Part shown: positions 653-26,956 of the stretch, one piece after another
How positions within the stretch are numbered: the first letter of the stretch is position 1
How the letters are laid out: every line of letters starts with the position of its first letter
IMG/VR virus record: IMGVR_UViG_3300042502_000160
Span: 1-29,762 of that record
Length of the DNA: 29,762 bases
Reading direction: 5' to 3' (one strand)
DNA from: a virus
Program-made: the position numbers and the translations under genes
The notes under the pieces: generated by a model
Database searches by the model: none
Seen by the model: only the letters and a program-made list of their open reading frames with translations
What the model was told of the DNA's origin: nothing

Positions 653-748
653 TAAACGGTTCGGCTTCACATTATAGAACCTAAAGATGTTATTGAACCT
701 CTTAATGAATTTGGACGTGAAGCCCCAAAGGATTTAAGGGGTTTTTTT
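653..748 (+). ncRNA. Candidate structured leader or small RNA
   Basis: No protein is encoded in the gap 640-767. It contains an 8-bp perfect inverted repeat (GGCTTCAC 663-670 with GTGAAGCC 717-724) and an 11-bp near-identical direct repeat (TTATAGAACCT 672-682; TTATTGAACCT 690-700). A GGTTC at 658-662 can pair with the GAACC of either repeat. The right arm of the long stem overlaps the left arm of the terminator at 723-724, so the two folds compete. This suggests either an attenuator for the genes from 768 onward or a discrete RNA of about 90 nt. The fold is read by eye only. Confidence 0.35.
720..748 (+). terminator. Rho-independent terminator candidate
   Basis: CCCC (723-726) pairs with GGGG (738-741). 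The stem extends outward through one G-U and two A-U pairs and inward through AAA/TTT past a two-base bulge. Seven T residues follow (742-748). It sits between the DnaA-like gene and the gene at 768. Confidence 0.55.
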
Positions 749-767
749 ATTTAAAAAATTTAATGTT

Positions 768-965
768 ATGATTTACAAATTTGACAATGCGCATTCAGAA
801 TTAGAGGTTGAACTAAGCAAGGCAGAAGATGACGATTGTTTTGATACAGTTATGTTTTCGGTAAAATACAAGGATGAGTTATTTTGGAAAACTTCATCTT
901 TGAAAAAAGAGGACATTTACCATTTAATTGGAGCATTGCATTTACTACATAAGCAAATGAATTAA
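768..965 (+). CDS. Small hypothetical acidic protein, 65 aa
   Basis: The product is an acidic 65-residue protein with an alternating hydrophobic N-terminal half (residues 12-45, probable beta strands) and a C-terminal helix (about residues 47-63). It has no membrane segment or cysteine motif. It starts just after the terminator hairpin in a T/A-rich leader without a Shine-Dalgarno sequence and is followed 11 nt later by the replisome-organiser gene. That suggests it is the first gene of the replication operon. I do not recognise the family. Confidence 0.6.
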   Translation: MIYKFDNAHSELEVELSKAEDDDCFDTVMFSVKYKDELFWKTSSLKKEDIYHLIGALHLLHKQMN

Positions 966-976
966 TAATAGGTAAA

Positions 977-1552
977 ATGAGAAAAGCATTTAATTTTTAC
1001 CGCAGTTATTATGATGTTGCCATATTGCTTCCTGAATTGGAACGCGCCGAGTTTTTAATGTGCATATGCCATGCTCAATTTACTGGTGAATTAATAGAGC
1101 CAAAACTACCTATTGCAAAACTCGCCTACATTGGTCAATTACATTCAATTAAAAAGCAATTGGAAGGTTATAACTATGGTTTAAAAACACCAAAGAAAAC
1201 TGAACCCTTAAAGGAACCCTTAGAGGGTGCCTATGAGAGTCCCTTAAAGGAACCCTTACCACAAGAGCAAGTACAAGTACAAGAGAAAGAGAAAGAAGAA
1301 TATAATATAGATAGCCGCAAAAAAGATTTTGCTGCATTACTTCAACCTTACATTGAGACGTATGGTCGTGAAATGTTGAACGAATTTTATTTCTACTGGA
1401 CTGAACCTAACCAACGTAAAACCAAAATGAAATACGAAATGGAAAAGACTTGGTCAATTGAACGAAGACTAAACACATGGTCAAAACAAAGTGTTAAATT
1501 CGGAACGGCAGTCAGCAAAGCGGAGAAACCTAAATTTGATCCTTATGGATAA
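977..1552 (+). CDS. Replisome organiser / replication initiation-like protein
   Basis: This 191-residue protein has three parts. The N-terminal domain (residues 1-62, starting MRKAFNFYRSYYD) resembles DUF6291-type phage replication proteins. A low-complexity linker (about 70-105) is rich in E, P, K, Q and contains a duplicated PLKEPL. The C-terminal domain (about 110-185; FYFYWTEPNQ, KMKYEMEKTW, RRLNTW) is the sort found in phage replisome organisers and helicase loaders of Bacteroidota phages. The likely role is to recognise the phage origin and recruit the helicase, whose gene follows with an 8-nt overlap. The linker DNA holds iteron-like repeats, as in lambda O. The family call comes from motif memory. 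Confidence 0.65.
   Translation: MRKAFNFYRSYYDVAILLPELERAEFLMCICHAQFTGELIEPKLPIAKLAYIGQLHSIKKQLEGYNYGLKTPKKTEPLKEPLEGAYESPLKEPLPQEQVQVQEKEKEEYNIDSRKKDFAALLQPYIETYGREMLNEFYFYWTEPNQRKTKMKYEMEKTWSIERRLNTWSKQSVKFGTAVSKAEKPKFDPYG
1205..1315 (+). other. Candidate replication origin: iteron-like repeats plus AT-rich tract inside the initiator gene
   Basis: An 18-bp sequence, CCCTTAAAGGAACCCTTA, occurs perfectly twice (1205-1222 and 1241-1258). Seen finer, CCCTTA appears four times at 1205, 1217, 1241 and 1253, spaced 12, 24 and 12 bp. A small hairpin (ACCCT TAG AGGGT, 1216-1228) overlaps the second copy. A purine-rich stretch (1264-1295) and then a short A/T-only run (around 1299-1311) follow directly. 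Iterons plus an AT-rich unwinding region in the variable linker of the initiator gene is the layout of the lambda and many Gram-positive phage origins. The repeats also encode the PLKEPL linker, so a purely coding origin is possible. Confidence 0.45.
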
Positions 1553-13447: not shown

Positions 13448-14189
13448 CCTATACAAAACAAAAGCGGCATCCGATATAAAGGACATGGATAGCGATAAGC
13501 GGCAAGTTGCTGTTTACCTATCAACCTTTGATACAATAGATGCTGATAATGACATGATTAAAAAGGGTGCGTTCGCTAAATCAATACAGGAAAGAGGCGC
13601 ACAAAGCACATCTAATCGTAAAATCGCATTCCTTAGACATCATGATTGGGATTGGCAAATCGGTAAATGGTTAAGCCTTGAAGAGGATGATAAAGGACTG
13701 TTCGCAGTGGGTGAATTAGGTCGATCAACTAAGGGTAATGATGCGTATTTAGACTATGAAGATGGAATAATACGTGAGCATTCAATCGGATTCCAATACA
13801 TGGCTGACAAAATCCGTTGGATTGATGATTCAACTAAAGAGGAAGGCGGATATTGGATGGTTTCAGAGGTGAAATTGTATGAAGGTAGCGCGGTTACCTT
13901 TGGTGCTAACGAACATACCAATGTTGTAGACGTAATGAAGGGTGAGAATCGCGTTGAAGTAGCCGATAAGATCGCAAAAGAAATTGAAGGAGTCATTAAA
14001 GGACTAACCAACGGCAAAGGAACAGATGAAAGGCTGTTCGAATTGGAAATGAAATTAAAGTTTTTGAACGCAAAGTTGCTAACACTTGCCAAAACCGAAC
14101 CGCAGAATGTTAAGCATTTGGATTTAGGTGAGCCGGTTAAAGTGATTGAGGCGTTTGATTGGAATACAGTTATAAACAAGTTAAAGTAA
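13434..14189 (+). CDS. HK97-family prohead protease (S78/U35)
   Basis: The 251-residue protein has the protease core in its first 165 residues. RQVAVYLSTFDTIDADND leads in, H70 (LRHHDW) is the likely catalytic histidine and S117 (REHSIGF) the nucleophile. LYEGSAVTFGAN supplies the third acidic residue (E150 candidate). It cleaves the scaffold-like N-terminus of the capsid protein and itself during prohead maturation. The remaining 85 residues are helical and may be the self-cleaved tail. A separate scaffold gene is not seen, consistent with HK97-type capsids. Confidence 0.87.
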   Translation: MKDYNLYKTKAASDIKDMDSDKRQVAVYLSTFDTIDADNDMIKKGAFAKSIQERGAQSTSNRKIAFLRHHDWDWQIGKWLSLEEDDKGLFAVGELGRSTKGNDAYLDYEDGIIREHSIGFQYMADKIRWIDDSTKEEGGYWMVSEVKLYEGSAVTFGANEHTNVVDVMKGENRVEVADKIAKEIEGVIKGLTNGKGTDERLFELEMKLKFLNAKLLTLAKTEPQNVKHLDLGEPVKVIEAFDWNTVINKLK

Positions 14190-14200
14190 AACAAAAGCAA

Positions 14201-24708: not shown

Positions 24709-26956
24709 AACTTACACTGATATATTCGGTAATTCACTTGGATTTTTTCAGGCAAACGCGGGTGATCAAGTTACGCTTGAATTAGAGATTCAATCATCAA
24801 TCAGGCTATCCTCGCAACAATCACCTTTTCAATTAAATTTATCTGTTTATCCGTATGAGATTACATCACCTTCGCTTAGTTGGGTTGAGGAAGGATTTAG
24901 GTTGGGTGATGATATTATTATCAGTATTTGGGATCCATATTCACCAACCGCATTAACTGATTATCCGGCTGAAATAATGTACATTGATGATAACGTAATT
25001 GGCGTTAACACGTTGTTAGGTTGGTATAACGTAACGGATCAACAATACGCAACCATACACGTTACCGGTAGAGATCGCGACACGTTAGATGTATTGTTAA
25101 ATCAGGTGCTAAATAGCACTGCCGGTACAGAATTTTCGTTAATAGATGGTGAGGTTACGCGTTTCAAGTTTACAGGGATCAATAGTATAACGCCATCTAC
25201 TACATTAACGGGTGTTCAAACGGGGTTGCAATCAGGACAATTTGAGGCAACATCAACACTTAGAAGATTAACCAATCCTAATGCCTATGAACGCGCGTAT
25301 GAATTAACAATCAACTTTATTCAATCGGGTATTTACTCATCCACATGGTTTGAAACATCTAATTGTCTTAAATCATTTGTCAAATTAGAGTGGGCATCAC
25401 TTGCAAATGAGCCGTTTGGAAAGACAATAAAAGTTTTTAATGATGCGGCTGATACTGGTTGGTTTGATCAGGCATATAACACGCAAGTTGCAAACGCAAC
25501 GCTTGTTCAAGGTATCGACTATTTAGATTATCAATATCCAACCACAGGAGAATTTGTAGTTGATTCAGCATCTAATGATTATGGCTTTGGATCGGCTTAT
25601 ATTTCGATTGATACAACGTATTATAAGAACAGACCTTTTGATCAAAGCCAAATTACAATGGCTATTCCATCAACGGAGTTTACAGTTGGCGTTCCTGTAT
25701 CATCAGAGTTAAATGAATTTGGTGCTGGTTACACATTGCAAATAAACAGCGTTACAACGGTTGGAACGGTTCGAACGGTGAACTATACATTTACTCCTAA
25801 TGCCGCCTTTAATACGTTCTTTGATGGCTTAGAATTAGGCAATAGAAACTTTTATGTATGGGCAAAATGGGGAACAGTAAACCTACTTTTATTTAGTGGT
25901 GAACTTGAAACAACACCGCCAATTGGGGGCGCGTTAACGCCTGTACGGGTTGATTTCTTTGATCATTCAGAGCAATTAACTGAAGCAATAAACAACGATC
26001 CTAATTGCACGGGTAACATTGAGGATGATTTTGGCTTTAGCGGGATTTTTAGACTTGAGGAAGGCGAACAATACGAAAGCATGACAGCGCGTATTGAGGC
26101 GCACAATTCTGTAACGAATGAGTCATTCACATTGAATCAGGTGTTCTTTGATTTTACAAGTGTTCCCTTTAATGGAACGCAACACCTTTTGAATTTAACT
26201 ATTCCGGTACAAAGCCAATTACCAACGACATCGGTTAAACGTGATGCGTCTTTGTTCCTATTACCTTCCGCTGATATAACGGGCGAGTATGGGATCAATT
26301 TGTATTTTCCTTTCCTTTATCGATGGGAATATTGGCTACCACAGAATAATGCAGATGCTGATTTCTATCCTAATGATCAAACAAAGAACTGGTATCCGTA
26401 TGATTCAACGGGCGATTGGTCAGTTCGATTGTACGTTCAGTTAATCAAAGGTGGACTTGCTTACATTTACGATAATAACGTAACTATAAACAACTATGAT
26501 TCTGATCCTGAAATTGATCAGGAAATTGAATTATACCGCCTATCAACAGGGCAAAATGTTCAGGTAGTAATTGATGGAGAACAACATCGAATTGTTGCAA
26601 CGCACACATTAACTGATGGCACGGGATGGAATCCATTGGAAACATGGGGAATGATAACCGTAGAACCTACTGAATCATCACCGCGTTACATAGTGTCAAC
26701 GGTTGTGCCGTATGATTATAATCCAAGTAATCCACTTAGTCCAATATCGGGCGCATTGGTTAACATAACTTATCCATCGGTAAATGTGGCGGTAATGGAG
26801 TGTTACTTTGATCCAACAATTATGGACTTGAGTAATGGCGTAAAATTCACAACCAAAATCAAAGGATGTGCAAGTGAAGAAAGTTTAGTAAACAAAGCAA
26901 CCACTGACAATGTAACAAAGGTTACAACATGGGGTGAAACAAAACAAATAGCATAA
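24686..26956 (+). CDS. Large beta-rich tail/baseplate protein
   Basis: The 756-residue protein is almost wholly beta strand, with many T, S, N, Y and few charges, typical of baseplate or tail-tip proteins. The first 160 residues (NAGDQVTLELEIQSSIRLSS, IIISIWDPYSP) look like a folded domain. Repeated short motifs such as FNDAADTGWFDQAYN and FDHSEQLTEAINNDPNC punctuate the rest, and WNPLETWGMITVEP lies near the C-terminus. No enzymatic residues or lectin motif could be assigned. It follows the distal tail protein and precedes fibre-like genes, so it probably sits at the tail tip. Confidence 0.55.
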   Translation: MPIQITSKTYTDIFGNSLGFFQANAGDQVTLELEIQSSIRLSSQQSPFQLNLSVYPYEITSPSLSWVEEGFRLGDDIIISIWDPYSPTALTDYPAEIMYIDDNVIGVNTLLGWYNVTDQQYATIHVTGRDRDTLDVLLNQVLNSTAGTEFSLIDGEVTRFKFTGINSITPSTTLTGVQTGLQSGQFEATSTLRRLTNPNAYERAYELTINFIQSGIYSSTWFETSNCLKSFVKLEWASLANEPFGKTIKVFNDAADTGWFDQAYNTQVANATLVQGIDYLDYQYPTTGEFVVDSASNDYGFGSAYISIDTTYYKNRPFDQSQITMAIPSTEFTVGVPVSSELNEFGAGYTLQINSVTTVGTVRTVNYTFTPNAAFNTFFDGLELGNRNFYVWAKWGTVNLLLFSGELETTPPIGGALTPVRVDFFDHSEQLTEAINNDPNCTGNIEDDFGFSGIFRLEEGEQYESMTARIEAHNSVTNESFTLNQVFFDFTSVPFNGTQHLLNLTIPVQSQLPTTSVKRDASLFLLPSADITGEYGINLYFPFLYRWEYWLPQNNADADFYPNDQTKNWYPYDSTGDWSVRLYVQLIKGGLAYIYDNNVTINNYDSDPEIDQEIELYRLSTGQNVQVVIDGEQHRIVATHTLTDGTGWNPLETWGMITVEPTESSPRYIVSTVVPYDYNPSNPLSPISGALVNITYPSVNVAVMECYFDPTIMDLSNGVKFTTKIKGCASEESLVNKATTDNVTKVTTWGETKQIA

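Follow-up and report, generated by a model that had tools for sequence, protein, structure and literature searches.

Repeats spaced one helical turn apart in the initiator gene of this phage are very likely docking sites for the protein that the gene encodes; the gene therefore probably contains the phage's own replication origin. The window analyzed here is the whole viral contig of 29,762 bp. In it, the 12-bp-phased repeats are very likely origin iterons, that is, double-stranded sites for the DUF6291-like N-domain of the same gene's protein. This is probably a lambda-type arrangement in a different, so far undescribed protein family. The features involved are:

977-1552, + strand: initiator (replisome-organiser-like) gene, 191 aa, with N-domain (residues 1-67), linker (70-110) and C-domain (111-175)
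1205-1264, + strand: candidate iteron array of five 12-bp units, CCCTTAAAGGAA twice, CCCTTAGAGGGT, CCCTTACCACAA and a degenerate third unit, GCCTATGAGAGT
1205-1222, + strand: first copy of the perfect 18-bp repeat CCCTTAAAGGAACCCTTA
1241-1258, + strand: second copy of the perfect 18-bp repeat CCCTTAAAGGAACCCTTA
1263-1302, + strand: purine tract CAAGTACAAGAGAAAGAGAAAGAAG, 85% purine, the maximum over 40 bp for the + strand
1290-1314, + strand: low-stability A/T-rich stretch, candidate unwinding element
1545-2534, + strand: replicative helicase-like ATPase gene, next in the replication module, assigned to phrog_5482 with weaker matches to DnaB-like and primase/helicase families

The original prediction had described a perfect 18-bp direct repeat, resolvable into four CCCTTA units with 12/24/12-bp spacing, in the linker of the initiator-like gene. 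The two copies of CCCTTAAAGGAACCCTTA are present as described, in frame and 36 bp apart, and CCCTTA starts at 1205, 1217, 1241 and 1253 bear out the spacing; the array, however, reads as five 12-bp units and not as four hexamers, with the register CCCTTAAAGGAA, CCCTTAGAGGGT, GCCTATGAGAGT (degenerate), CCCTTAAAGGAA, CCCTTACCACAA. TRF reports a single 12-bp array at 1202-1258 (4.8 copies). No 300-bp slice of the window holds a direct repeat longer than these 18 bp, the runner-up being 13 bp, and the CCCTTAAAGGAACCCTTA pattern is absent elsewhere in the 29.8-kb contig, even allowing two mismatches. When the peptide was kept fixed and codons were redrawn from genome usage, a repeat of this length was reached in 70 of 20,000 trials. 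In the CCCTTA units, CCC encodes each of the four prolines; elsewhere in the window it makes up 3.8% of proline codons. In exact form, the CCCTTA iterons occur only in the window and in four near-identical contigs (phages L003-L006). The sister arrays of L118 and L021 share the 36-bp spacing and layout of the window array, and base identity to them (29/60) shows no excess over the mean of 27.5 under synonymous resampling.

The purine-rich stretch that had been predicted to follow the repeats is found at 1263-1302, and the short A/T-only run as AATATAATATA at 1299-1309. The 25-mer starting at 1290 ranks in the least stable 0.3% of the window. By stability and by purine rank, an easily unwound tract adjoins the iterons. 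Among relatives, the 40-bp purine maximum of the surrounding slice (up to 5.5 kb) falls within the tract for 30 of 39 genes, and the codons of the tract are skewed: glutamate is GAG in 56% of cases vs 16% elsewhere, lysine AAA in 99% vs 73%, and glycine GGG in 75% vs 9%. Across the family, this strong codon bias keeps the tract purine-rich. A sharper AT-rich element across relatives was weakly enriched (25/39 genes at 5% or less vs a null of 44%). The conserved partner element beside the iterons is the purine tract; AT-richness is strong in the window and weak in the relatives.

The repeats and purine tract together encode linker residues 70-110, which the AlphaFold2 model predicts to be disordered between two folded domains, matching the linker position originally claimed. 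Residues 9-67 of the N-domain are modelled confidently as all-helical (pLDDT about 95), and the C-domain (111-175) is also helical. The C-domain belongs to phrog_19415; a C-domain of this type is also found in Riemerella phage CRP5, in a gene directly 5' of the annotated replicative helicase. The N-domain scores 14.3-16.4 bits against Pfam DUF6291 (PF19808), under the gathering cut-off of 27.2, and 25 of the 26 relatives aligned with it match this family (best E 8e-15). Because its own score falls below the cut-off while aligned relatives match, the window N-domain is named DUF6291-like only. Foldseek on the AlphaFold2 model gave no clear fold match (best E 3.0, unrelated proteins), VIA-align returned unrelated proteins (best Z 3.9), and the A1 profile searched against PDB sequences matched only three-helix segments of protein A and designed proteins. 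Since the model has no clear fold match, DNA binding by the N-domain draws no support from structure. In the open-licence literature, no paper was found on DUF6291 and none on origins in such phages.

The relatives, collected by scanning viral contigs twice and genome contigs once, comprise 75 distinct genes with the N-domain, window included. Their linkers are rich in AGGGGGT/ACCCCCT words, followed by (GAGAAA)n and then by C-domains of many unrelated kinds. Across the 75 genes, GGGGGT encodes 112 of the 118 Gly-Gly pairs in linkers, where codon usage elsewhere would predict about 4%; of 43 Pro-Pro pairs, 35 are written CCCCCT. Successive GGGGGT words lie 12 bp (58 times) or 24 bp (twice) apart and at no other distance; CCCCCT words are spaced by 12, 24 or 36 bp. 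At a lag of 12, third codon positions match in 52% of cases vs 36% (maximum 40%) under synonymous resampling. Words are also shared between linkers in opposite orientation: 502 ordered pairs have common 9-mers, vs a mean of 117 and a maximum of 168 under peptide-preserving nulls. As an example, the reverse complement of TCGGTAGGGGGT, which encodes SVGG in L047, is ACCCCCTACCGA, and L071 and L048 read the latter as part of PPTE. The linker is conserved as DNA, not as peptide, across the 75 relatives. The original prediction had suggested conservation of DNA repeats in the linker and had proposed their 12-bp phasing among relatives as a check; the near-fixed codons, lag-12 matches, word spacing and opposite-orientation 9-mers bear this out.

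The tandem form of the word is confined to linkers. Among 29 phage contigs (about 0.9 Mb), 18 contain RGGGGGTN5RGGGGGT, with 29 occurrences in all; each is in a linker and lies 215-242 bp from the initiator start when positions are compared with locus coordinates. Single words number 26 outside vs 39 inside linkers (602 kb). As single words also occur outside linkers, the phased array is the specific feature.

Further arrays are found in more distant systems. The host of Nitratiruptor phage NrS-4 (L177, LC545445.1) belongs to a different bacterial phylum. The N-domain of this phage shares about 40% identity, and its linker carries AGGGGGT/ACCCCCT words and a purine tract. It also contains a non-coding 12-bp-phased array at 14144-14186, composed of the units CCGAAGGGGGTC, AAGAAGGGGGTT, ATGATACCCCTT and GCCAAGGGGGTG, immediately in front of the initiator start codon at 14192. 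A search of viral contigs for NrS-4-type N-domains yielded one weak match. In Riemerella phage CRP5 (L176, OQ268095.1), where the window C-domain lies behind a different N-domain, the linker (935-1120 of the locus) repeats a 12-bp unit of TGATACNGTT type about sixteen times with little variation and shows 48-bp higher-order repetition, an array that differs in sequence from that of the window. More distant DUF6291 genes from bacterial genomes carry different repeats at the corresponding position, and in two of three these clearly exceed the codon null. Several unrelated initiators that occupy this locus in related phages carry 11-bp linker repeats (L164, L174), which are therefore out of frame; others there (L159, L160, L171) show no repeat excess.

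If the array is read by the N-domain, the two are expected to change together, as the original prediction proposed. Here, a Mantel test relates distances between linker DNAs to those between N-domains with r 0.52 (p 0.0004; r 0.41 when the outlier L008 is left out), vs r 0.11 (p 0.03) for the C-terminal family. Linker DNA tracks the N-domain far more than the swapped C-domain. Two loci illustrate this pattern: L007 and L008 combine the window C-domain with other N-domains and other linker DNA. Almost all phages examined share one helicase family.

These data bear on other explanations of the repeats. The protein could use the repeats as operators to repress or otherwise regulate its own operon, with replication starting elsewhere. 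The position of the non-coding NrS-4 array at the start of the initiator gene, a natural place for autoregulation, suggests autoregulation as well as origin use in that phage. The array in the window family instead lies about 230 bp inside the gene and is coupled to a conserved purine tract, 73 of the 75 genes have no such words in the 400 bp upstream, and the protein is paired with a helicase gene, all of which make a purely regulatory role unlikely. Regulation and origin use may both occur. A different possibility would be that the conserved linker DNA is a recombination joint for swapping N- and C-domains, as C-domains are swapped behind similar linkers and swaps are frequent at this locus. 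Homology alone would suffice for such a joint, however, and strict 12-bp phasing, orientation flips, N-domain covariation and a non-coding array before the NrS-4 gene would be left unexplained, so that this explanation is very unlikely.

The repeats might also serve the protein, as a Gly/Pro-rich flexible spacer arising from repeat slippage. The peptide is indeed repetitive as well (EPLKEPL and GGSV arrays) and the linker is predicted to be disordered; against this stand the near-fixed codon choice contrary to usage, the unrelated peptides encoded by opposite-orientation copies and the out-of-frame 11-bp repeats of other initiators. A peptide-level explanation does not cover the NrS-4 array, which is non-coding, and a spacer function for the repeats is extremely unlikely. 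Finally, the window's exact unit has no independent relative, as would be the case for a chance repeat or an artefact in the window alone. Chance or artefact is barely credible for an 18-bp repeat with rare codons located exactly where relatives carry arrays.

For the preferred reading as origin iterons, a mechanism can be outlined. From the computed features, namely the repeats, phasing, DNA-level conservation, both orientations, linker-only tandem arrays, N-domain covariation and the NrS-4 non-coding copy, we infer N-domain binding, strand opening, helicase recruitment and replication start. Initiator copies would load onto 1205-1264, where several could line up on one helix face, 12 bp being about one turn. 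The loaded initiator may then distort or open the adjoining purine/AT-rich stretch (1263-1314), and the phage helicase from the next gene would be recruited via the exchangeable C-terminal domain. The origin would sit in a flexible, dispensable linker of its own initiator. The use of both orientations suggests that each unit is recognised either as a nearly symmetric site or as one that is placed independently.

GC skew was examined in five complete relatives that have terminal repeats; it follows transcription and coding strand, its extremes are scattered, and it does not mark the place of the array. DnaA boxes were considered as an alternative origin and rejected, with 33 one-mismatch matches in the window, below the chance mean of 49.6, and no cluster.

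Comparison with known systems places this layout near that of phage lambda. The lambda origin has four iterons in one orientation and an AT-rich tract, whereas here a 12-bp unit occurs in both orientations and in 3-6 or more copies beside a conserved purine tract; the lambda iteron is longer than 12 bp. In lambda O/ori-lambda and the lambdoids, the origin likewise lies in the middle of the initiator gene, the iterons precede a tract that opens easily, additional iterons make the protein longer, and a helicase-delivering function is encoded next door (PMC7466680). The lambda O/ori arrangement originally proposed is supported for the origin-type layout. As for the protein, the N-domain is predicted to be all-helical and is DUF6291-like, not recognisably lambda O, and no O-family match was found for the window protein in Pfam, PHROGs or NCBIfam. 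No sequence relation between lambda O and this N-domain was found, and no separate P-like loader was identified here.

Lactococcal replisome organisers of the TP901-1 type are likewise phage-encoded origin-binding proteins that organise helicase loading, and in SPP1 and TP901-1-type phages the origin lies within or adjoins the organiser gene. A similar role is filled by SPP1 G38P, the replisome organiser acting at oriL (PMC5615212). The protein families and iteron sequences of both types differ from those found here, and SPP1 has a separate loader, G39P. In iteron plasmids, autoregulation proceeds through related sites; their origins lie outside the rep gene and their initiators are winged-helix Rep proteins, both unlike the present system. 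The likeness is in phased iterons that are bound by the initiator (RepE, Pi, TrfA) beside an opening element (PMC4980987).

The region upstream of the initiator gene shows features of its own. A structured RNA of about 95 nt lies at 656-748 (A4; L006:2566-2659, L008:2891-2981 and others), with a Bacteroidota-type promoter motif, TATATTTG, and a terminator-like 3' hairpin. The segment 641-757 is conserved between otherwise diverged phages. An alignment of 25 copies shows 8 bp of pairing between the loop of a first hairpin and the loop region of the terminator-like hairpin that follows. Of the alignment cells in this kissing/pseudoknot helix, 97% are paired; 6 of its 8 pairs have changed on both sides, and 0 of 500 shuffles scored as high in covariation over the entire structure. 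When copies were picked solely by sequence, the two loops of a copy matched over 8 nt or more in 22 of 23 (15 distinct words), vs 57 of 506 cross pairs. Rfam has no match to the RNA, and a BLAST search of 50,697 phage records found none either. In 12 of 20 contigs a model of the RNA is found once, immediately upstream of the initiator gene, and a pattern scan also places the RNA upstream of unrelated initiators of several families. Between the window (653-965) and G001 (L119:16325-16760), phages otherwise about 94% identical, the RNA and a 65-aa ORF (768-965) are exchanged, and identity resumes at the initiator. By this comparison, RNA and ORF appear to form a fast-swapping cassette.

Further upstream, just before the replication operon, a gene at 211-639 encodes a protein of 142 aa that has the DNA-binding domain of DnaA (Bac_DnaA_C, E 1.9e-7) and lacks an ATPase part; the protein had no match in the phage collection. 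In a gene of the late region, a 9-bp unit, AACGGTTCG, forms a short tandem array at 25756-25779.

A broader proposal is offered tentatively, at somewhat less than even probability. DUF6291 may be an unrecognised phage origin-binding domain, present in phages from Bacteroidota to Campylobacterota, that recognises 12-bp-phased iterons in either orientation next to a purine tract, all within the gene that encodes it, the replication operon being further controlled by an undescribed kissing-loop RNA and a fast-swapping small ORF immediately upstream. Pfam assigns no function to DUF6291 (PF19808); if true, the origin binding suggested here would give this domain of unknown function a role. It would also provide an origin-finding rule for many uncultured freshwater phages, namely codon-defying 11- or 12-bp repeats in an initiator linker. 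The linker would be a coding sequence with codons dictated by a putative DNA-binding array, such that one DNA site can be written as SVGG or PPTE. N-domains, iterons and helicase-facing C-domains would swap as modules, and origin-recognition specificity would therefore be directly testable with natural variants.
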